Notes under the pieces: generated by a model
Database searches by the model: none
What the model was told of the DNA's origin: nothing
The model's input: only the letters and a program-made list of their open reading frames with translations
Assembly (NCBI GenBank): GCA_023381695.1
Contig: JAMCQP010000071.1
Coordinates: 1-64,000, forward strand
Direction: 5' to 3'
Length of the DNA stretch: 64,000 bases
From: Bacillota bacterium
GTDB lineage: Bacteria; Bacillota; UBA5301; JAMCQP01
Made by a program: the position numbers and the translations under genes
Shown: piece by piece, positions 2,657 to 15,245 of the stretch
Position numbering within the stretch: position 1 is the first letter of the stretch
Layout: each line of letters starts with the position of its first letter

Positions 2657-4078
2657 ATGCGGCAAAAATTTGATATGGCGATCATCGGAGCCGGGCCGGG
2701 AGGGTATGTGGCGGCGATCCGGGCCGCCCAACTGGGAAGCCGGGTGGCCCTGGTGGAGGAAGCGCAGTTGGGCGGCACCTGCCTCAACCGGGGTTGCATC
2801 CCCACCAAAGCCCTCCTGCATACCGCCGAAGTGATGCATACCCTGGCATCCGCCGGCGAATTCGGTGTGGTGATGGAAGGATCGTTCCACCTGGATCTGG
2901 GCAGGGCTTTGAAACACAAGGAAAAGGTGGTCTCCCAGTTGAGGCGGGGCGTGGAACACCTGATGGCCGCCAACGGCGTGGAGGTCATTCCCGGCAGGGG
3001 CAGGCTGGCCGGAACCGGCAAGGTAGCCGTGACCGCACCTGGCGGGGAACTGGTGGTGGAGGCGGACAAGATCGTCATCGCCACCGGGTCCAGGCCCGCG
3101 GCGCTGCCGGTGCCGGGCGCCGGCGAAGCGGCGGTCATTGACAGCGATGCGGCGCTGGCGATGGCAGCGGTTCCCGAAAGCGTCCTGATCATCGGCGGAG
3201 GGGCGGTGGGCATCGAATTTGCGAACATCTACCACGCCTTCGGAGCCCAGGTTACTCTGGTGGAGATGCTTCCCAGGCTGGCGCCCGGCGAGGACGAGGA
3301 GATCTCGGCTCTTCTGGCGCAGGAGCTGAGGGGCCGGGGTATTACGGTCCATACCGGCGCCAAAGCCTCCCTATTCAAACGGGACAGCGGGGGAAAGACG
3401 GTGGCGACGCTATCCACCTCCCAAGGGGACGTGCAGGTGATTGCCGACGTGGTCCTGGCCGCCGCCGGGCGAAGGCCCAATACGGAGGGCCTGGGGCTGG
3501 AGACGGTGGGAGTGGCCACCGGGCGCGGGTGGATCACCACCGATGATTACCAGCGGACGAACGTACCAGGCATCTATGCTGTCGGCGATGTGACGGGGAG
3601 GACGCTCCTGGCCCATGCCGCGTCCATGGGCGGCGTGGTGGCGGTGGAACACGCCGCGGGCCAGCACACCGTCCCCCTGGATCCCTCCAGGGTGCCCCGA
3701 TGCATCTTCAACCGGACGGAGATCGCCAGTATTGGATTGACCGAAGCACAGGCCAGAGAACAGGGGCACCGGGTCGCCACGGGAAAGTTTCCGTTCTCCG
3801 CCAACGGCCGGGCAATCACCATGGGCCCGACCGGCGGGATGGTTAAGGTGGTGGCCGCGGAAGATACCGGGGAGTTATTGGGGGTCCACATCATCGGGCC
3901 CCAGGCAAGCAGCCTGATCATGGAAGCGGGGGTGGCCATGACACTGGAAAGCACTCTGGAAGAACTCACCAGCGTGGTCCACCCGCACCCGACCCTGACC
4001 GAAGCCATGGAGGAGGTCTTTCTGGCTGCTCTTGGCAGGCCGGTTCACATTCCACGCGGGAGGAGCGTGAAAGCATGA
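2657..4078 (+). CDS. acoL: dihydrolipoamide dehydrogenase (E3 of the acetoin-type complex)
   Basis: A 473-residue flavoprotein disulfide reductase that reoxidises the dihydrolipoyl arm of E2 with NAD+. FAD-binding GAGPGG sits at residues 11-16, the redox-active disulfide Cys42/Cys47 lies in GGTCLNRGC, the NAD-binding loop is IIGGGAVG, and the C-terminal HPHPTLTEAMEE carries the catalytic His/Glu pair. Its stop overlaps the acoA start (ATGA), indicating translational coupling within the E3-E1-E2 cluster. The E3 family is certain; assignment to acetoin dehydrogenase rather than pyruvate dehydrogenase rests on the neighbours. Confidence 0.93.
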   Translation: MRQKFDMAIIGAGPGGYVAAIRAAQLGSRVALVEEAQLGGTCLNRGCIPTKALLHTAEVMHTLASAGEFGVVMEGSFHLDLGRALKHKEKVVSQLRRGVEHLMAANGVEVIPGRGRLAGTGKVAVTAPGGELVVEADKIVIATGSRPAALPVPGAGEAAVIDSDAALAMAAVPESVLIIGGGAVGIEFANIYHAFGAQVTLVEMLPRLAPGEDEEISALLAQELRGRGITVHTGAKASLFKRDSGGKTVATLSTSQGDVQVIADVVLAAAGRRPNTEGLGLETVGVATGRGWITTDDYQRTNVPGIYAVGDVTGRTLLAHAASMGGVVAVEHAAGQHTVPLDPSRVPRCIFNRTEIASIGLTEAQAREQGHRVATGKFPFSANGRAITMGPTGGMVKVVAAEDTGELLGVHIIGPQASSLIMEAGVAMTLESTLEELTSVVHPHPTLTEAMEEVFLAALGRPVHIPRGRSVKA

Positions 4079-5033
4079 AATTATCCAGAGAACTACTACT
4101 CGGTCTTTATCGTAATATGATGCGCATCCGGCTCTTTGAGCAAAAAGCCATCGAGCTGTACAGTCAGAACCTGATCGCCGGGACCATTCACCCGTGCCTG
4201 GGCCAGGAAGCCATGCCGGCCGGGGTGAGCGCCGCCTTGCGCAAGGATGACTACGTTACCAGCAACCACCGGGGGCATGGGCACTGTGCCGCTAAAGGGG
4301 GAGACCTGGCGCGGATGATGGCGGAGCTGCTGGGAAAGAGACCGGTTACTGCCGGGGGCGGGGAGGTTCCATGCATATTGCCGACCTGAGCCTGGGGATC
4401 CTGGGGGCCAACGGCATCGTGGCCGGGGGGATTCCCATCGCGGTGGGCGCCGCCCTGAGCGCCAGGCTGCGCGGGACGGATCAAGTGGTGGCCTGTTTCT
4501 TCGGCGACGCGGCGGTGAATCAGGGGGCGTTTCATGAAGGAGTGAACCTGGCGGCCGCCTGGAAGTTGCCGGTGGTCTTCGTTTGCGAGAATAACCTCTA
4601 CGGCGTATCCACCCGCATTACAGAAACCTTCCCATTGGAAAAGATCGCCGATCGGGCTGCCGGTTACGGTATCCCCGGCGTGACCGTGGACGGAAACGAT
4701 GTGCTGGCCGTTTATAAAGCGGCTCAGGAGGCGGTGGGACGGGCTCGCGATGGGAAGGGGCCAGCCCTGCTGGTGGGGGACACCTACCGCTGGGAAGGGC
4801 ATTTTTACGGTGAACCCGGACTATACCGTACGAAGGAGGAACTGGAGAGTTGGAAGGCCGCCGATCCCATCCCCCGATTTGCCGGGTACCTGGCGGAGAA
4901 GGGGTGGGGTGCGGAAGTGGAGCGAATTGCCGGGGAGGTCAAGGATGAGGTGGAACGGGCCGCCCGGTTTGCCATCGAAAGCCCGCTGCCCGATCCCGCC
5001 ACTCTTCTGGATAATGTGTTTGTCCCATTTTAG
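4075..5033 (+). pseudogene. acoA: acetoin dehydrogenase E1 alpha subunit, thiamine-diphosphate dependent, split by a -1 frameshift
   Basis: Two overlapping frames together encode one normal-length E1 alpha (about 319 residues). The first (4075-4389) runs from MKLSRELLLGLY to MAELLGK and then leaves the family sequence. The second frame resumes exactly there as ETGYCRGRGGSMHIADLS, the typical AcoA motif, and continues through the thiamine-diphosphate region (GDAAVNQGAFHEG, ENNLYGVST) to 5033. The frame change is at 4332-4338, G GGA AAG, so either one base is missing (mutation or sequencing error) or ribosomes shift -1 on this canonical slippery heptamer. An internal ATG at 4371 preceded by GGGGAGG could also restart translation, but would give a truncated protein. 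E1 alpha pairs with AcoB to cleave acetoin. Confidence 0.85.
4332..4338 (+). other. candidate -1 slippery heptamer in acoA
   Basis: GGGAAAG is read in the zero frame as ..G GGA AAG, matching the X XXY YYZ slip pattern. Slipping back one base gives exactly the residues (LLGKETGYC) expected for AcoA. A CCGG/CCGG mini-hairpin (4342-4345 with 4352-4355) follows after only 3 bases, which is closer and weaker than usual stimulators. A single-base deletion in the same G/A run explains the data equally well. Confidence 0.35.
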
Positions 5034-6089: not shown

Positions 6090-7454
6090 ATGGCGGTACC
6101 CATACTGATGCCCAAACTCGGGCTGACCATGGATGAGGGGATCGTGATCCGCTGGTTGAAGACGGTCGGCGAGCCGGTGCAAAAAGGTGAACCGCTGTTG
6201 GAAGTGGAGACGGACAAAAGCGCGGTGGAGGTGGAATCCTCCGCCAGCGGGGTTTTGTTGCAAATTGTGGCGGGGGAAGGCGCAAAGGTGCCGGTGGGCG
6301 CTACGATTGCTTACCTGGCGGAGGAAGGGGAAGAGGCCGCGGCTCCCGGCAGGGAGAAGATTCCAGCCGGGGAGAGCGCTCCAGCCGGAGAGAACACCCC
6401 TGTCAGGGGGAGCGCACCTGCTGGGGGGAGCAAGCCAGCCGTAGGGCGGGTAAAAGCTTCCCCCCTGGCCAGGAAGTTGGCCGGGCAAGCAGGGTTGAAC
6501 CTGGCGGGGGTGGTTGGCTCCGGTCCCGGCCACCGGATCGTGAAGAAAGATGTGCTCCGTCTTCTGGAAGACCGGCGCACGGTCGTTAGCCAGCTTGCGG
6601 CGCCGCCAACGCCGCGCGCCGCCTTTGAGGCCATCGCCGGCTCGACCGCGGTTGCGCCGGGGACTCAAAAGCCGGTAAGCATCGCTCCCCCGTCCATGGG
6701 ACATGGCGAAGGGAGCTACCGGGAACCGGTCACCAGGATGCGCAAGGCGATTGCGGACCGGATGCTCTACAGCACCTCCCGCATCCCCCAGTTCTTTGTT
6801 TCCCTGGAGGTGGAACTGTCCAGGGCTTTATCCCAGATCGAGGCTCTGACCCCGGAGGTTCAGAACGGTTACGGCGCCAAACTCTCGGTCACCGACCTTT
6901 TGATCCTGGCGACAGTCAGATGCTTGCAGAAGCACCGGGAGATGAACGCGTATTACCTGGCGGGGGAGTCCTTGCAAGACACCTTCATCGAATACCACGA
7001 CTTCGTGAACATCGGGGTGGCGGTGGCCCTGCCCCATGGACTGCTCGTCCCCGTGATCCCCCATGTGGAGCAAAAGGGGCTGGGCGAGATCGCTATTGTC
7101 AGGGCGGAAGCGGTGCGGAAGGCCAGGGAGGGCCGGCTGGGAATGGATGAACTGCAGGGCGGTACCTTCACCATCTCCAACATGGGGGGGATGGGCATCG
7201 ACCATTTCCAGGCCATCATCAATCCGCCGGAAGCGGGGATCCTCGCGGTGGGGCGGGCCAGAAAGAAACCGGTGGTGGTGGGTGACGCCATCGCGATCCG
7301 GCCGGTGCTGGAACTCAAACTGACCGCGGATCACCGGATGATCGACGGGGCCACGGCGGCGGCATTTTTGAAAGATCTGGCCACCTTGCTGGAGAGCGGC
7401 CGGCTGGATGTAACCTATGGGGGAGTGGGGGATGGAGATGTGGCTGAGGGTTGA
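6090..7454 (+). CDS. acoC: dihydrolipoamide acyltransferase (E2 of the acetoin-type complex)
   Basis: A 454-residue E2 core. The N-terminal lipoyl domain carries Lys43 in ETDKSAVEVES. A Pro/Ala/Gly-rich linker with repeated PAGE/APAGE-like units follows (about residues 85-115), then a peripheral-subunit-binding domain (SPLARKLAGQAGLNL, about 120-155) and the CoA-dependent acyltransferase domain ending with the catalytic DHRMIDG. The ATG at 6090 is chosen because the family begins MAxPILMPKLG; the frame is open further upstream only through the 10-bp repeats. The end overlaps the next gene by 23 bp. Confidence 0.92.
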   Translation: MAVPILMPKLGLTMDEGIVIRWLKTVGEPVQKGEPLLEVETDKSAVEVESSASGVLLQIVAGEGAKVPVGATIAYLAEEGEEAAAPGREKIPAGESAPAGENTPVRGSAPAGGSKPAVGRVKASPLARKLAGQAGLNLAGVVGSGPGHRIVKKDVLRLLEDRRTVVSQLAAPPTPRAAFEAIAGSTAVAPGTQKPVSIAPPSMGHGEGSYREPVTRMRKAIADRMLYSTSRIPQFFVSLEVELSRALSQIEALTPEVQNGYGAKLSVTDLLILATVRCLQKHREMNAYYLAGESLQDTFIEYHDFVNIGVAVALPHGLLVPVIPHVEQKGLGEIAIVRAEAVRKAREGRLGMDELQGGTFTISNMGGMGIDHFQAIINPPEAGILAVGRARKKPVVVGDAIAIRPVLELKLTADHRMIDGATAAAFLKDLATLLESGRLDVTYGGVGDGDVAEG

Positions 7455-9180
7455 TCTGGGCAAACGAACGGTGGTGCGACAACCCTTGCCGGACAAGTAC
7501 CGCCGCCTGGGGGGAAGAGGGCTGACCGCCGCCATCCTGCTGGACGAGGTGCCGCCCGCCGGTGATCCCCTGGGGGAGGAAAACAAGCTGGTTCTGGCGG
7601 TGGGCCTGCTGGGTGGCACGGCGGTGCCGGCTTCCGGCCGGCTGTCCGCCGGTGCCAAAAGCCCCCTCACGGGGGGGATCAAGGAGAGTAACGCCGGGGG
7701 GACTACCGCTCAGCGGCTGGCCTCGCTGGGGCTGAGGGCGGTGGTGGTGGAAGGCCGGGCGACCGGGACTGGGGTTAAGGACGGATTAGTCCTGGAGATA
7801 GGGAGTTCCGGGGGGCGTCTGGTGGAATGCCCGGACCTGGCGGGAAAAGGAATCTACGCTGCCTCCGGGATGCTCAGGGATCGCTACGGCGCCCGGGCGG
7901 CCCAGGTGCTGATCGGCCCGGCCGGAGAAATGCAACTCCATGCCGCCTGTATCGCCAATCTCGACAAGGATGGCGTGCCCAGCCGGATGTGCGGGAGGGG
8001 CGGCCTGGGCGCGGTGATGGGCGGCAAAGGGTTGAAAGCGATGGTGGTGCTTCCCCCGGATACCCCGGATAGTCCGGTCAACCGCCCTGCCAGGCCCGAA
8101 GAATTCAAACAGGCGCTCCGGGAATTTATTGCCATGGTCAAGGATCATCCGGTGACTCTTACCTACACCCGATTTGGCACCGCGGCCATGGTCGCCCGGA
8201 CCCAGGCCTTGGGGATATTGCCCACCCGGAACTTCACCACCGGCCGGTTTGAAGAGGCGGACAGGATCGGTGGGGAGGAGCTGGCGAGCGTAATCACGCG
8301 CCGCGGCGGAGCGGGCGCCACAACGCACGCCTGTATGCCGGGGTGCATCGTCAAGTGTTCCAACATCTACCCGGATGAAAGCGGCCGTCCCATCGTGAGC
8401 CCTTTGGAGTACGAGACGATCGGCCTGATGGGTTCCAACTGCGGGATTGGCGATCTGGACGCCATTGCCAGGATGAACTACCTGGCCAACGACGTGGGCG
8501 TGGATACCATCGAGGTGGGGGCGGCTCTGGCGGTGACCATGGGGGCTGAACGCCTGCGGTTCGGAGATGGCGCGGGGGCGGCCAGTGCCATTAAAGAGAT
8601 CGCGGAGGGCACCGGGCTGGGTCAGATGCTGGGCAACGGCGCGGCCGCCACCGCAAAAGCATTGGGGGTGAGCCGGGTGCCGGTGGCCAAAGGGCAAAGT
8701 TTTGCCTCTTTCGACCCCAGAGGGATTAAAGGGCTGGGTGTAACCTTTGCGACCTCGCCGCAAGGCGCCGACCATACCGCCGGCCACACCATCCGCGCGG
8801 AGGTGGATCACCGTTCGCCGGAAGGGCAGGCCAGGCTCTCCCATCAGGCCCAGATCAAATCTGCCCTGTACGACAGCCTCGGGTTATGCATGTTTGTCAC
8901 TCCTCCCCTGGGAACAGATCGGAGCCTGGTGACGCGTCTGATCAATGCGCATTATGGCTGGACGCTAAACGATGCGGAAGTTTTTGAGATGGGGATCCAG
9001 ACTCTGGCACGGGAGGTTACCTTTAACCGGCGGGCGGGTTTGACCTCGGCGCATGACCGCCTCCCGGAATTTTTGAGAACGGAACGCCTTCCTTCCACCG
9101 GGACGGTTTTTGACGTCCCTCAGGAAGAACTGGACGGCCTGGTGGAGGATTTTTTGAATAAATACCGGCAGGGGGCGTGA
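7432..9180 (+). CDS. aor: aldehyde:ferredoxin oxidoreductase (tungsten/molybdenum pterin enzyme)
   Basis: A 582-residue member of the AOR family, which oxidises aldehydes to carboxylic acids with ferredoxin as acceptor and uses a tungsto- or molybdo-bispterin plus one [4Fe-4S] cluster. The N-terminal domain (LRVDLGKRTV, GGRGLTAAILL) and the middle domain are typical. Cluster cysteines are visible as CMPGCIVKC (spacing CX3CX3C, around residue 300), with a fourth candidate in the C-terminal GLCMFV. The start is uncertain: ATG 7432 or ATG 7438, both inside the end of acoC, imply translational coupling. A role in removing acetaldehyde formed by the Aco complex is inferred from position. Confidence 0.88.
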   Translation: MEMWLRVDLGKRTVVRQPLPDKYRRLGGRGLTAAILLDEVPPAGDPLGEENKLVLAVGLLGGTAVPASGRLSAGAKSPLTGGIKESNAGGTTAQRLASLGLRAVVVEGRATGTGVKDGLVLEIGSSGGRLVECPDLAGKGIYAASGMLRDRYGARAAQVLIGPAGEMQLHAACIANLDKDGVPSRMCGRGGLGAVMGGKGLKAMVVLPPDTPDSPVNRPARPEEFKQALREFIAMVKDHPVTLTYTRFGTAAMVARTQALGILPTRNFTTGRFEEADRIGGEELASVITRRGGAGATTHACMPGCIVKCSNIYPDESGRPIVSPLEYETIGLMGSNCGIGDLDAIARMNYLANDVGVDTIEVGAALAVTMGAERLRFGDGAGAASAIKEIAEGTGLGQMLGNGAAATAKALGVSRVPVAKGQSFASFDPRGIKGLGVTFATSPQGADHTAGHTIRAEVDHRSPEGQARLSHQAQIKSALYDSLGLCMFVTPPLGTDRSLVTRLINAHYGWTLNDAEVFEMGIQTLAREVTFNRRAGLTSAHDRLPEFLRTERLPSTGTVFDVPQEELDGLVEDFLNKYRQGA

Positions 9181-9184
9181 AGGC

Positions 9185-10108
9185 ATGGATCTCGGAAGCA
9201 GGGCTCAGAAGTTAAGGCTGGCCATTATTTCGGAATCAGCGGGTAACTGGCCGGTGTATGTGGGATTGGAAAAAGGGTTTTTCCTGGCCGGGGGTCTGGA
9301 TGTGGAGGTGGCCATCACCCGTTCGTCCGTCAAACACCTGGAAGCCCTGACGGCCGGCGGGATCCATGACATCGGCCACCAGGCGGCGGATCACATCGTG
9401 CGCGCGGTGGAGACCGGTTCAGACCTGTTTATCTTCCTCGGCCTCTCCACGCCGAACTACAGCCTGATCGTCGCTCCGAAGGTCAAAAGTTACGCGGACC
9501 TCAAAGGGAAAAAACTGGGCGTTGACGGCGTCTCCACCGGGTTTGCCCTCTTGTTGCGCGGGCTATTGCGGCAAAACGGCCTGGAGGAAGGCCGGGAATA
9601 CGATCTGGTTCCGGTGGGTGGCACGGGTGAACGTTTCAACGCGATCGTAAACGGCCAGGTGGAGGGGGCGTTATTGGACGGCCCCGCCGATCTGATTGCG
9701 GAGGCGAGAGGCTTCCGGCGCCTGGGCAGCAATCTGGATTACCTCCGCCAGTACCAGGGGACGGTCGCCGCCACCAAAAGGGCCTGGGCGGCGCAGAATG
9801 AAGAACGCCTGGTCAAATATATCAGATCCTACGTAGCGGCCCTGGATTGGCTGCATGACGCCGACAACAGGGCGGAGGCCGTCTCCATCCTGCAGAAATA
9901 CCTGCCCGTGGAAACGGAGATCGCCGGCAAAACCTACGACCGTTATATGGAGTTAAACACCTTCAACCCCCGCGCGGCGGTGAATCTGGCGGGAATGAGG
10001 GAAGCCATGAAGGTGATGGCCGCCACCGGCCAGTTGGACCCTTCTTTACAGAAACCCGAAAAATACTGCGATTTGACCTACTACTCCAGGGCTCTGGGTG
10101 AGGGGTGA
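9185..10108 (+). CDS. NMT1/THI5-like (SsuA/TauA-type) substrate-binding protein without signal peptide
   Basis: A 307-residue periplasmic-binding-protein fold: LRLAIISESAGNWPVYVGLEKGFF near the start, then a helix-strand series typical of ABC transporter solute-binding proteins for sulfonates, nitrate or thiamine precursors. Oddly, the N-terminus is MDLGSRAQKLRLA, with no hydrophobic signal segment and no lipobox cysteine, and no ABC permease or ATPase gene is nearby. ATG 9185 lies 4 bp after the aor stop with GTGAAGG before it, so the short N-terminus looks real. It may be a cytoplasmic binder or sensor tied to the flanking AOR genes. Fold confident, function unknown. Confidence 0.75.
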   Translation: MDLGSRAQKLRLAIISESAGNWPVYVGLEKGFFLAGGLDVEVAITRSSVKHLEALTAGGIHDIGHQAADHIVRAVETGSDLFIFLGLSTPNYSLIVAPKVKSYADLKGKKLGVDGVSTGFALLLRGLLRQNGLEEGREYDLVPVGGTGERFNAIVNGQVEGALLDGPADLIAEARGFRRLGSNLDYLRQYQGTVAATKRAWAAQNEERLVKYIRSYVAALDWLHDADNRAEAVSILQKYLPVETEIAGKTYDRYMELNTFNPRAAVNLAGMREAMKVMAATGQLDPSLQKPEKYCDLTYYSRALGEG

Positions 10109-10162
10109 GCCGGTCGACGGTCGATCCTATATTCCCATATTGTGTTTTTGGAGGATGGAAAG

Positions 10163-12001
10163 ATGGGTTACGGTTACTTCAACAGATTGCTGCGGGTAGA
10201 TCTCACAAAAAAGACGATCGAGGCAATCAGGCTGCCGGAAGAGTACTGGCGAAAGTACGTGGGGGGTAAATGCCTGGGCAGCAGACTCTTGCTGGACTAT
10301 GAACTCTACAAGTACGACCCGCTGGCGGAAGAGAACTATATTTTCATGCTGGTGGGCCCCCTGACGGGCTCCGTCACACCAGGGGTGGGCAAGACCTCCT
10401 TTTTCAGCAGGTCGCTCCTGACCGGCGGTTACCTGGACTCAACCTGCGGCGGCAGGTTGGCCCACAATTTGAAGTCCGCGGGCTACGACGGGGTGATGAT
10501 CACCGGCCAGAGCGAGGTGCCGGTTTACCTGTCGATCACCGACCATGAGGCCAGGCTGGAGAGCGCAAAGGATCTCTGGGGCAAAGGGTGCTTTGAGACG
10601 GAGTCCATCTTGAAATCCATCCACGGCAGAGACGCTTCCACGGCGGTGATCGGCCCGGCGGGGGAAAATCTGGTCAAATACGCGACAGTGCACGCCGACT
10701 TCTACCATCAGGCCGGCAGGGGCGGGGTAGGCGCCCTCTTTGGCGCAAAGAAGCTCAAGGGCATTGTGGTTTCGGGAGGCATTCCGGTGCCTTATTATCG
10801 CCCTCGGGAGCTGTTTGCCGAGGGATTCAGGCTGATCCGGGAGTCCCGCCCCGACCAGAAGGTCAGATTTCGCATCCGGTACGGCACCATGAGCACCCTG
10901 GATCTCACGCAAAAGCTGGGCATCGCGGTGGTGCGCAACTTTACCGACGGGGTCAGCGACCGGTATGACCTCGACCTGAACCGGGACTACCTCAAGGAAC
11001 ACTTCGTGGTGCGGGACCTGGGTTGTTTTGCCTGCCCCGTGCCGTGCGGAAAGGGCAGCGAGTTTGAGTACCAGGGAACCACCTACCGGGTGGGCGGGCC
11101 GGAATACGAAACCATGTCCCTGATCGGCACCAATCTGGAGGTCAAGGCGGAGGAGTTGCTCTATCTGAACTGGCTGTGCGACGATCTGGGAATCGACACC
11201 ATCAGCGGGGGGGTGACCCTCGGTTGTGCCGCCGAAGCCTATGCCAGGGGGCTGCTGGATGATCAGGATCTTGGCCTCAGCTTGAAGTGGGGAGATGGGG
11301 CAGGGTTTGCCAAGGCCTTCCGGGCGATCGCTTACCGGCAGGGCGTCGGAGCCCTGCTGGCGGAGGGTTCCCGAAGGTTTGCGCAGGAGATAGGCCTGGA
11401 TCGCGATACCGCCATCCAGGTCAAGGGGATGGAGATCGCGGGATACGACCCCCGGGGAACCACCGGTTATGCCCTGGAGTTTGCCGTGGCGGACCGTGGG
11501 GGATGCCATCGCAGAGCGCGGCCGATCTACAAGGAGCAGGATGACGATGCCTACCGCTTCTCGTATGAGGGTAAAGGAAAGATGGTAAAGGAACTGGAGG
11601 ATCAGCGGGCCTTTTACCACTCTCTGATCATTTGTGACTTCATTCCATCGATCTACCCGTTAAAGGTGAAAGAATACGCCGGGCTGTTGAGCCTGGCGAC
11701 AGGATGGGAGATCAGCTTCGATAAGGCGGTGCAAATCGGGGAACGGGCGATGAACCAGAGCAGGTTGTTCAACGTCTATTGCGGGATCCGCCGGAAAGAC
11801 GATATCTTGCCCGGCCGGTTCTTCAACCAGCCCCTGCCCAGGGGGCGGGCGCAAGGCCAGGTGCTGGAGCCCGCCAGGTTCCAGCAGATGCTCTCCGACT
11901 ACTACGCCGCCAGGGGCTGGGATGAAGACGGGGTGCCAACGGCGGCCAAGCTGGAGGAGTTGGGAATCGGCCCGGGGAATTTGGAGGCAAGGGAGGCATG
12001 A
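10163..12001 (+). CDS. aor: aldehyde:ferredoxin oxidoreductase, second paralogue
   Basis: A 612-residue AOR-family protein distinct from the upstream one. The N-terminus YFNRLLRVDLTKKTIE and VGPLTGS are family hallmarks; cluster cysteines appear as CFACPVPC (CX2CX3C), with a late Cys in FNVYCG. ATG 10163 is preferred over the in-frame ATG at 10142 because GGAGGATGG precedes it at normal distance and the family starts near this residue. Its stop nearly touches the following ferredoxin gene, suggesting that the ferredoxin is its electron partner. Aldehyde specificity unknown. Confidence 0.88.
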   Translation: MGYGYFNRLLRVDLTKKTIEAIRLPEEYWRKYVGGKCLGSRLLLDYELYKYDPLAEENYIFMLVGPLTGSVTPGVGKTSFFSRSLLTGGYLDSTCGGRLAHNLKSAGYDGVMITGQSEVPVYLSITDHEARLESAKDLWGKGCFETESILKSIHGRDASTAVIGPAGENLVKYATVHADFYHQAGRGGVGALFGAKKLKGIVVSGGIPVPYYRPRELFAEGFRLIRESRPDQKVRFRIRYGTMSTLDLTQKLGIAVVRNFTDGVSDRYDLDLNRDYLKEHFVVRDLGCFACPVPCGKGSEFEYQGTTYRVGGPEYETMSLIGTNLEVKAEELLYLNWLCDDLGIDTISGGVTLGCAAEAYARGLLDDQDLGLSLKWGDGAGFAKAFRAIAYRQGVGALLAEGSRRFAQEIGLDRDTAIQVKGMEIAGYDPRGTTGYALEFAVADRGGCHRRARPIYKEQDDDAYRFSYEGKGKMVKELEDQRAFYHSLIICDFIPSIYPLKVKEYAGLLSLATGWEISFDKAVQIGERAMNQSRLFNVYCGIRRKDDILPGRFFNQPLPRGRAQGQVLEPARFQQMLSDYYAARGWDEDGVPTAAKLEELGIGPGNLEAREA

Positions 12002-12005
12002 GCAG

Positions 12006-12413
12006 GTGCATCTGAGAGTGAAAGTTTCCGAGTGCGCGTTTTGCAACCTTTGTTCATTGGCTTGTGCCTTTAAACATTCGGGGACGTTGTCCCTGGCCCG
12101 GGCGGCGATCCGCGTTTCGCCGGAACTGCCGGACCGCTTGAAGGTCAAGGTGAACTTTTGCATCCAGTGTTCCCAGGGCTATTGCATCGAAAGTTGCCCG
12201 CAAAAGGCCCTGAGGCGCGAAGAAGACGGGCGGGTAACGGTCGAGGAGTTGCTGTGCGATGCCTGCCAGGGCGAGTACCGGTGTGTCCCGGCCTGTAAAG
12301 TCAATGGCATCTTTAGATCCCCTGACGGGGCCCGCCCCGTGAAGTGCGACCTGTGCGGGGGCGATCCGGAATGTGCCAAGGTTTGCCCCAACGAATTGAT
12401 CTCGGTGGCATAA
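12006..12413 (+). CDS. 16-cysteine 4Fe-4S ferredoxin-like subunit (HycB/DmsB type)
   Basis: A 135-residue protein with four cysteine quartets: CAFCNLCSLAC, CIQCSQGYCIESC, CDACQGEYRCVPAC and CDLCGGDPECAKVC. Sixteen cysteines predict four [4Fe-4S] clusters, as in electron-transfer subunits of pterin oxidoreductases. GTG 12006 is chosen: GGGAGG precedes it by 9 bp, and upstream codons in this frame overlap the AOR gene and do not look like ferredoxin. No signal peptide, so it is cytoplasmic. Adjacent to AOR, it most likely accepts electrons from aldehyde oxidation; that partnership is inferred. Confidence 0.87.
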   Translation: MHLRVKVSECAFCNLCSLACAFKHSGTLSLARAAIRVSPELPDRLKVKVNFCIQCSQGYCIESCPQKALRREEDGRVTVEELLCDACQGEYRCVPACKVNGIFRSPDGARPVKCDLCGGDPECAKVCPNELISVA

Positions 12414-12427: not shown

Positions 12428-12450
12428 ATGGGAGCCGGGAGGTGAATATT

Positions 12451-12729
12451 GTGCCGGAGATGGCGGTCAAGGTGGATTTTATCGGGCCAGGAGGGCTGGA
12501 ACCGGGAACCACCGTGATCCAGGTCGATTTGACACCGGGGGCGACCATCCGGGACCTGCTGCGTCGTTTGGTGGAAATCTACGGTAATACCGCCCGGAAG
12601 AAGCTGCTCCAGCTGGATGGGGTTACTCCCTACGTGGAATTTATCGTCAAGGGGAAGATCGTATCGCCGGATCATCCCCTGGAGGCCGGAGACGAAGTAC
12701 TGATCTTGCCGCCGATCTTTGGCGGGTGA
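12451..12729 (+). CDS. MoaD/ThiS-family ubiquitin-like sulfur carrier
   Basis: About 92 residues with a beta-grasp pattern: VKVDFIG, VDLTPGATIRDLLRRLVE, DEVLILPPIFGG, ending in the diagnostic Gly-Gly that is adenylated and thiocarboxylated. In AOR clusters such proteins supply sulfur for the dithiolene pterin of the W/Mo cofactor, which fits the two AOR genes upstream. GTG 12451 is preferred, with GGGAGGTGA at ideal distance; GTG 12442 lies within that ribosome binding site. The last codons touch the leader of the LacI-family gene. Confidence 0.85.
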   Translation: MPEMAVKVDFIGPGGLEPGTTVIQVDLTPGATIRDLLRRLVEIYGNTARKKLLQLDGVTPYVEFIVKGKIVSPDHPLEAGDEVLILPPIFGG

Positions 12730-12758: not shown

Positions 12759-13796
12759 ATGCCGGCCACAATAAAAGAAGTGGCAGAACGAGCCGGGGTT
12801 AACCCGTCCACCGTCTCGCGGGTGATCAATGAGGATCCGAAACTGTCCATTCGTGAGGAGACCAGGAACCGCATTTTGCAGGCCATTGAGGAGTTGCAGT
12901 ACCGTCCCAATGCCGTGGCCAGGAGTTTAAGATTGAAAACCACGGGCACGGTCGGAATGATCATTCCCGATATTACCAACCCCTTCTTTCCAGAGATTAT
13001 CAAGGGAGCGGAAAGCGCCGCCTCCGAAAGAGAGCTCAGTTTGATTCTTTGCAATACGGATGAAAATCCGGAAAAGGAACGGAGCTACATTGAGCTTCTT
13101 ACCGAGAAGCAGGTCGATGGGATACTCCTGGCTTCGGCTTACATTCAAGATGAGACCGTTGACCTGGTGACCAAACGGAAGATCCCGTACGTGCTGGTGA
13201 ACCGCACGGCCAGAAATGCCGTCGGGGCTTCCGTGAGGGTGGACGATGTTTTGGGCGCGCAGCTTGCGATTCAGCATCTGGTGGCTCTGGGCCACAGGCG
13301 AATCGCCCATATTTCGGGGTTGCTCTATACCGAAACCGGTCTGGATCGGCTGGAAGGCTACCGGAGGACCCTGAACCAGTGCCAGATACCATTTCTCTCC
13401 GAATACATGGTCGAGGCGAGATTCTCCGAGCGAGATGGCTATTTGGCCATGGAGAGGTTGTTGGCGCTTCCCGACCCTCCCACCGGCGTTTTTGCCGCCA
13501 ATGACCTGATTGCGCTGGGGGCGATGTCCGCGATCCGCGATCACGGCTGGAGCGTGCCGGAAGACATTTCGGTGGTGGGTTTCAATGATACCTGGTTGGC
13601 CGAAAAGGTTCACCCGCCGTTGACCAGCGTCAAGGTTCCCCTTTATGACATGGGATACCTGGCCGTCGAAAGCCTGGCCAGGAAGATTTTGGGGGAGACG
13701 ATGCCGCAAGACAAAATTGTGCTGAAACCCGAGTTGATGATCCGGCGTTCCACCGATGCAGCAACTGCCAGGACCAGGGTGATCAGGGAGGCGTGA
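12759..13796 (+). CDS. LacI/GalR-family transcription regulator
   Basis: A 345-residue repressor with an N-terminal helix-turn-helix (TIKEVAERAGVNPSTVSRVIN), hinge (YRPNAVARSL) and a periplasmic-binding-protein-like effector domain (GMIIPDITNPFF, then FAANDLIALGAM). ATG 12759 follows AAGAGGTGG; an ORF extension to 12726 overlaps the MoaD-like stop and lacks family similarity. It is the only regulator in the catabolic island, so it probably controls the aco/aor or glcDF genes. Its effector is unknown and no clear palindromic operator was identified. Confidence 0.93.
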   Translation: MPATIKEVAERAGVNPSTVSRVINEDPKLSIREETRNRILQAIEELQYRPNAVARSLRLKTTGTVGMIIPDITNPFFPEIIKGAESAASERELSLILCNTDENPEKERSYIELLTEKQVDGILLASAYIQDETVDLVTKRKIPYVLVNRTARNAVGASVRVDDVLGAQLAIQHLVALGHRRIAHISGLLYTETGLDRLEGYRRTLNQCQIPFLSEYMVEARFSERDGYLAMERLLALPDPPTGVFAANDLIALGAMSAIRDHGWSVPEDISVVGFNDTWLAEKVHPPLTSVKVPLYDMGYLAVESLARKILGETMPQDKIVLKPELMIRRSTDAATARTRVIREA

Positions 13797-13798
13797 AG

Positions 13799-15245
13799 AT
13801 GGCGGGCGGAAAGTGGGCGGGCGAACCACTGCGACAGGCGCTGGCGGCCATTGTGGGGCCGGAGAAGGTGCTGACCGATTCAGTGGATATGGCCTGCTAT
13901 AGCTATGACTCCGGCCTCTTCTCGGCCTTGAACCCATGCCGGCCCGACGCCGTGGTCCTTGTTCACAACCTGGAGGACGTAACGGAGGTTGTTCGCTGGG
14001 CGGGAGAACACGGCGTGCCGCTCATTCCCCGGGGGGCCGGGACCGGCCAGGCGGGGCAAACCCTGGCTGTAACCGGGGGTATTCTCCTGGATATGAGTCC
14101 ATGGCACGAGATCGCATCCCTGGAGCCGCAAAACAGGATCGTCTTTTGCCGCCCCGGCGTGACCCATGCCCGGCTGAGAGAGGCCCTGGCGCCACACAGG
14201 CTCTACCTGCCTCCAGACCCCAGCAGCGGGGACGGTTGCACCATAGGCGGGATGGCGGCCAACAACTCCAGTGGGGCGCATTCTTTGAAGTACGGGCCCA
14301 CGAGCCATTATGTCCTCGGGCTGGAGGTGGTCCTGGGCACGGGAGAAGTGATCATCACCGGCGGAGCAAGGGGAAAGGTGCTGAAAAGCGTCTCCGGCTT
14401 AAACCTCAATGCTTTCTTCGTGGGCTCCGAGGGCACTCTGGGGGTGTTCACCGGCATCTGGCTCAAAGTGCTTCCGAGGCCCGCGGCCCGCGCCGCGGCG
14501 GTCATGATCTTCGAGAGATCGGAAGATGCCCTGGCGGCGAATCAGGAGCTGCAAAAAAGGGGGGTCATACCGGCGGCCATGGAATTTGAGCTTTGCGGGG
14601 CGGAGGCTACGCGGGCGGCGGCGGAACACCATGATGAGCTCTACGCGCCGGGGGCGGAGATGGCCGTGCTCTGCGAGGTGGACGGGAACCCGGCTGGCGT
14701 GGCCTGGGAATACGAGCGGGTGCAGGAAGTGGCGAAGGCCTATGCCAGGGCCTGGCGGGGGGCCAGTGACCCGAAAGGGGTGAAGAGACTCTGGGGAGTC
14801 CCTTGACGCCATTGAAACCTTCAACTCCAGGGCCCGCAAGGGGGCCAGACGCAGCCCCGGCGGGGAGGATATCTGCGTGAAACTGGAACGTCTACCGGCG
14901 GTGCTGCGGGAGATGCAGGCCATCGCCTGGCGCAACGGCATCGGCATGGTGAACTTCGGCCACCTGGGGGAGGGAAACATTCACTCTGGCCTCCTGGTGC
15001 GGATGGATGATCCAGAGGAACTTGAGGGTGCGCGGCGAGCTATGGACGAAGCTCACCGCCTGGCGCTGCGCGAGGGAGGTTCCACCGCCGGAGAACACGG
15101 GGTGGGGCTGGCCCGTGCCCCCTATATGGCCGGGGAGCATGGCGAAAGCTTGCGCTGGATGGCCGAGGTGAAGAAGGCCATGGACCCCCGCGGCATCATG
15201 AACCCGGGGAAGATCTGGCCCCTTCCGGGGACGGCTGGAAGTTAG
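13799..15245 (+). pseudogene. glcD: FAD-linked 2-hydroxyacid oxidase (GlcD type), split by a +1 frameshift
   Basis: Two frames make one GlcD/D-lactate dehydrogenase-like protein of about 481 residues, the family's usual length. The first part (13799-14806) has the FAD PCMH domain (PLIPRGAGTGQAGQ, DPSSGDGCTIGGMAANNSSG). It stops after KRLWGVP. The other frame supplies the missing region (ESLDAIETFNSRARKGARR), then NFGHLGEGNIH and GSTAGEHGVGL with the conserved C-terminal histidines, to 15245. The break is in GGGG at 14793-14796: one base fewer gives RLWESLDAIE. ATG 13799 fits GGGAGG 8 bp upstream. GlcDF-type enzymes oxidise glycolate or lactate; substrate not determinable. Confidence 0.85.

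Follow-up and report, generated by a model that had tools for sequence, protein, structure and literature searches.

A signal-less NMT1/SsuA-like protein encoded between two AOR-family genes, and its relatives beside molybdenum and tungsten oxidoreductase genes

Gene content around the NMT1 gene

The window, meaning the whole 64,000-nucleotide stretch that was analysed, starts at the first base of contig JAMCQP010000071.1 of a Bacillota genome (assembly 89.6% complete, with 6 AFOR_C matches). At 9185-10108 on the forward strand it carries an intact ORF with an ATG start that predicts a 307 aa NMT1/SsuA-like protein and, as a preliminary description had it, this gene is flanked on both sides by genes for AOR-family large subunits. 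The stop codon of AOR1 (7417-9180, forward strand; the start may be at 7432) ends 4 bases 5′ of the NMT1 ATG, and the WorL-like AOR2 (10142-12001, forward strand; the start may be at 10163), which has AFOR_N and AFOR_C matches, lies downstream. It is followed on the same strand by a WorS-like gene at 11922-12413 for a ferredoxin-like protein (Fer4 match), in which four Cys motifs were found by reading and the true start, also by reading, is probably near 12006, and by a WorX-like gene at 12442-12729 with a MoaD/ThiS-like domain match. In the part of PMC13328260 that was available, a Class II WOR consists of WorL and a ferredoxin-type WorS with four [4Fe-4S] clusters, and WorX is described for Classes I and IV. 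AOR2 and the ferredoxin-like gene, with its four Cys motifs, fit the Class II make-up as given in that part, and here a WorX-like gene follows. The terms substrate-binding, solute-binding, NMT1 and ABC transporter do not occur in the main text of PMC13328260, and no binding protein is named there. Judged by its gene content, the cluster may belong to an acetoin or vicinal-diol pathway.

Two further genes in the window are interrupted. The E1-alpha gene of a 2-oxoacid/acetoin-type dehydrogenase complex at 4075-5033 appears, by reading, to be split by a frameshift into two overlapping ORFs, and a GlcD-like gene at 13793-15245 is in two pieces, its counterpart in Gracilibacter (L007) being a single ORF of 479 aa.

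The product of 9185-10108 begins MDLGSRAQKLRLA and matches Pfam NMT1 (1.8e-17). It passes the curated cut-off of PF09084 (NMT1/THI5-like; 64.4 bits, cut-off 20.5) and falls short of that of SsuA_fam (TIGR01728; 51.9 bits, cut-off 163.5). An AGGGGG stretch is located 9 bases 5′ of the ATG. An in-frame TGA at 9155-9157 ends 27 bases 5′ of the ATG, and none of the nine codons between them is ATG, GTG or TTG, so there is, as the preliminary description had proposed, no room for a signal, and no alternative upstream start could supply one. The export signal found in SsuA-type ABC solute-binding proteins is absent, and the best Kyte-Doolittle 12-residue mean from the start is -0.5, compared with at least 1.78 in eight signal-bearing relatives; signal calls here and below are from reading of N-termini and these means, without a trained signal-peptide predictor. 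As to the proposed lack of a transporter nearby, no permease or ATPase gene was recognised between the contig start and about 19 kb in a scan of part of the ORFs that was done partly by reading, the upstream view ending where the contig begins, at window base 1.

Relatives with and without a signal

A signal-less member beside an AOR gene, which the preliminary description had suggested looking for in other genomes, was found in a second Firmicutes genome (G114), where the module is signal-less NMT1, AOR, ferredoxin-like and MoaD-like. The G114 protein L029 has no signal and is 59% identical to the window protein over residues 9-303. One G114 copy (L030a) and its AOR are 3.5 kb apart. The second NMT1 copy of this genome (L030b, at L030:13017-13733) is 3 bases 5′ of an AOR gene whose product is 57% identical to AOR2 and which has the ferredoxin-like and MoaD-like genes downstream; in the alignment, this copy has lost window residues 109-183 in frame, and with them most of lobe 2. 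A normal cleft could not form in this protein, which counts against a simple binding role. The association with AOR comes from these two genomes, and of 16 AOR2-like loci, spread over 13 of 398 genomes, only 2 had a subfamily match in the 1.5 kb flanks; a role as general AOR partner was rejected at this depth.

Most other signal-less relatives adjoin molybdenum-type enzymes. Five on plasmids (L040, L041, L106, L107 and L109) and those of G540, G583 and G678 are downstream of a CoxL-type gene, of which the G678 contig has just the C-terminal end, and the G618 and G705 members are 9 bases 5′ of CoxS and XDH-type genes. The Cupriavidus necator N-1 member (L108) is signal-less, adjoins ABC genes and has no Mo/W match. 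Among the signal-bearing relatives, L037 and L038 are in annotated catabolic operons, L038 adjoining a chlorocatechol dioxygenase gene, and L074 has its nearest XDH-type match 2,671 bases off, with UbiD nearer. L074 indicates that signal-bearing members, too, can be linked to such pathways. One stretch, L106:1-10932, contains UbiX, UbiD, two Mo-hydroxylase large subunits, NMT1, CoxG, and 2Fe-2S and M subunits, and a UbiD match is also found near a paralog from the window's own genome (L033). Relatives match 58 plasmid records, each at <60% identity, so spread on plasmids is possible. A phage origin was rejected, as phage records gave no match and viral contigs contained no relative.

In the subfamily loci examined, lack of a signal co-occurs with a neighbouring gene for a Mo/W pyranopterin enzyme. 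An AOR, CoxL/CoxS or XDH-type match was found within 50 bases in 12 of 14 signal-less loci and in none of the eight signal-bearing ones (Fisher 1.4e-4), although these are related sequences from a non-random sample and the p-values overstate independence. The preliminary description had allowed that relatives might all have signals and ABC partners; with 14 signal-less loci among the 22 scored, they do not. Adjacency was defined as a Mo/W query match at most 150 bases away, and in the loci counted as adjacent the distances reached 47 bases at most. Removal of L074 leaves 0/7 for the signal-bearing loci (Fisher 3.1e-4), and clustering at 70% identity gives 7/9 signal-less versus 0/8 signal-bearing (Fisher 0.0023). 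At 50% identity the counts are 4/5 and 0/4 (Fisher 0.048, two-sided). The highest 12-residue Kyte-Doolittle mean from any candidate start does not exceed 1.38 in any of the 14 loci without a signal, and the best is at least 1.78 in the eight signal-bearing ones. In 26 control loci of distant NMT1 proteins, some on short contigs, no Mo/W match was beside the NMT1 gene, one locus having Cox genes about 5.8 kb off, and all 19 of the 26 control N-termini that could be aligned have a signal-like segment. L122, from the last search, is signal-bearing and fits the pattern, its 16 kb containing no Mo/W match.

The searches that supplied the members used cut-offs as strict as E 1e-50 or 1e-60, and L040 and L041 served as seeds of the subfamily profile. 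The family line was set between 223 and 158 bits, which includes the internally deleted L030b (171 bits); weaker matches, such as Firmicutes L043 and L045 with signals and ABC genes, were not counted. Also excluded were L007, which is a remnant, L100, whose 5′ end is missing from the contig, L110, which matched in part, and some of the plasmid records. Adjacency was scored with approximate NMT1 coordinates for L073, L097, L104 and L122, and the L104 contig, at 5.2 kb, gives a short view of its neighbourhood. Adjacent loci are found in more than one group of the subfamily tree, which needs three changes of signal label, at least two of them forced, and is compatible with either loss or gain of the signal.

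Predicted fold and comparison with known systems

The model of the 307 aa protein (pLDDT 88.6, pTM 0.87, from an alignment of 12 rows) has as its top fold matches NrtA/CmpA, the CmpC regulatory domain, Thi5, PqqT, TauA and SsuA, among them nitrate, bicarbonate, pyrimidine, taurine and sulfonate binding proteins. MqnD/MqnA, DszB and 4,5-dihydroxyphthalate decarboxylase rank lower, and the likeness to MqnA/MqnD is by fold match, their family models not being among the Pfam and NCBIfam matches listed for the protein. Fold and Pfam family are the same as for SsuA/NMT1-type ABC solute-binding proteins (PF09084, TIGR01728). However, unlike these, the window protein has no signal, scores below the SsuA cut-off and has no ABC partner recognised nearby on the contig. 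The C-terminal regulatory domain of NrtC/CmpC has the same fold and is on a cytoplasmic ATPase subunit, to which it is fused, whereas the window protein stands alone beside oxidoreductases. In the part of PMC6603209 that was available, the NrtC domain is called regulatory, with a putative nitrate site.

Comparison with Thi5, the HMP synthase, gave a likeness in fold and a match for the N-terminal half of the family profile (1.4e-07). Thi5 has a PLP lysine and a Cys-rich iron motif. The position of this lysine, which we take to align with Q66, is not a lysine in the window protein, which has one Cys and therefore no Cys-rich motif, and a Thi5-type pyrimidine synthase was rejected on the identity of residue 66. 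ThiC was found in G114 and was not found in the window's own genome (89.6% complete) or in the Gracilibacter genome (G398).

Residues D69, Y190 and Q191 (21/21 rows) and D114 (20/20) are conserved in the family with or without a signal and absent from the outgroup (0/7), and position 118 is T in 18 of 20 family rows. From secondary structure and fold, D69, D114, T118 and Y190-Q191 are predicted to lie at the cleft and form a presumed pocket, the columns of which are common to signal-less members and exported relatives. R150 is kept in the family but also in 7/7 outgroup rows, and so is not particular to the subfamily. The AOR-type members are unlike the others at residues 65, 66 and 70, so their ligand may differ.

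Possible roles of the presumably cytosolic protein

The preferred reading, held tentatively at somewhat under an even chance, is that a type II solute-binding-protein fold made without export would be kept in the cytosol, where it would clamp a small organic metabolite, probably one with a carboxylate group, from the pathway in which the neighbouring Mo/W oxidoreductase acts, and would pass it to or from the enzyme or report its level. A metabolite is favoured over a cofactor or tungstate ligand because the pocket columns are common to exported relatives, two of which are in catabolic operons. The cofactor precursor or tungstate-linked ligand suggested in the preliminary description found no support in these columns, nor in the molybdenum-type neighbours of most other signal-less relatives. 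Its suggestion of an AOR chaperone or sensor may apply.

The fold might instead have turned catalytic and carry out a reaction of the same pathway that is not a redox step, for example a decarboxylation or a dehydration. The solved enzymes among the fold matches (Thi5, DszB, MqnD/MqnA and 4,5-dihydroxyphthalate decarboxylase), the UbiD genes near seven of eight Cox-type members, and H65 (3/3) and Q66 (2/3) of the AOR-type members, neither found in seven signal-bearing rows, are consistent with such an enzyme, but several presumed pocket columns are identical in exported relatives, the subfamily alignment has no conserved Cys and Q66 is presumably at the PLP lysine position of Thi5, and we consider catalysis unlikely. 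If the protein served the Mo/W enzyme as a cofactor or maturation factor, for example as a pyranopterin-binding chaperone, this would explain why the subfamily adjoins both AOR-type and MoCoBD-type enzymes, which have the pyranopterin cofactor as their shared feature. PqqT holds a large cofactor in the same fold, and L030b, beside AOR without lobe 2, could still act by protein contact. This role is nevertheless improbable, given that the pocket columns are common to exported relatives not adjacent to a Mo/W gene and that most of the AOR genes examined have no NMT1 partner, G114 having 17 AFOR_C matches and two NMT1 copies.

A third alternative is decay: the gene would be what is left of an uptake system after loss of the signal and drift, and would have no functional connection with the enzymes. 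The Gracilibacter gene (L007:7956-8246) is such an N-terminal remnant, 74.6% identical over window residues 10-80 and located between homologs of the two ADH genes of the window, in a genome (G398) where an AFOR_C search gave no match; the G114 L030b copy is internally deleted and two other window genes are frameshifted. However, the window ORF is intact with its identity to L029 maintained, the subfamily columns are kept and the adjacency recurs in separate tree groups, which makes a relic quite improbable. 

A further reading, possible but doubtful, is that pyranopterin enzymes have signal-less NMT1 proteins as dedicated partners for substrate loading or regulation, and that the AOR and xanthine-oxidase superfamilies each recruited them separately.

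An association of signal-less NMT1 proteins with Mo/W enzymes was not found among the papers listed in the literature searches, judged by title and start of abstract, and the available parts of PMC13328260, PMC13197769, PMC4275255, PMC6603209 and PMC10531765 name no NMT1-type component of Mo/W operons. The findings suggest a helper of Mo/W enzymes inside the cell that has not previously been studied. According to the abstract of PMC13328260, a physiological role has been defined for a member of only five out of 92 WOR clades. If the preferred reading is true, tungsten and molybdenum oxidoreductases would repeatedly have a cytosolic binding protein as partner. Many of these enzymes have no known substrate, and the ligand held by the partner would then give a lead to it.
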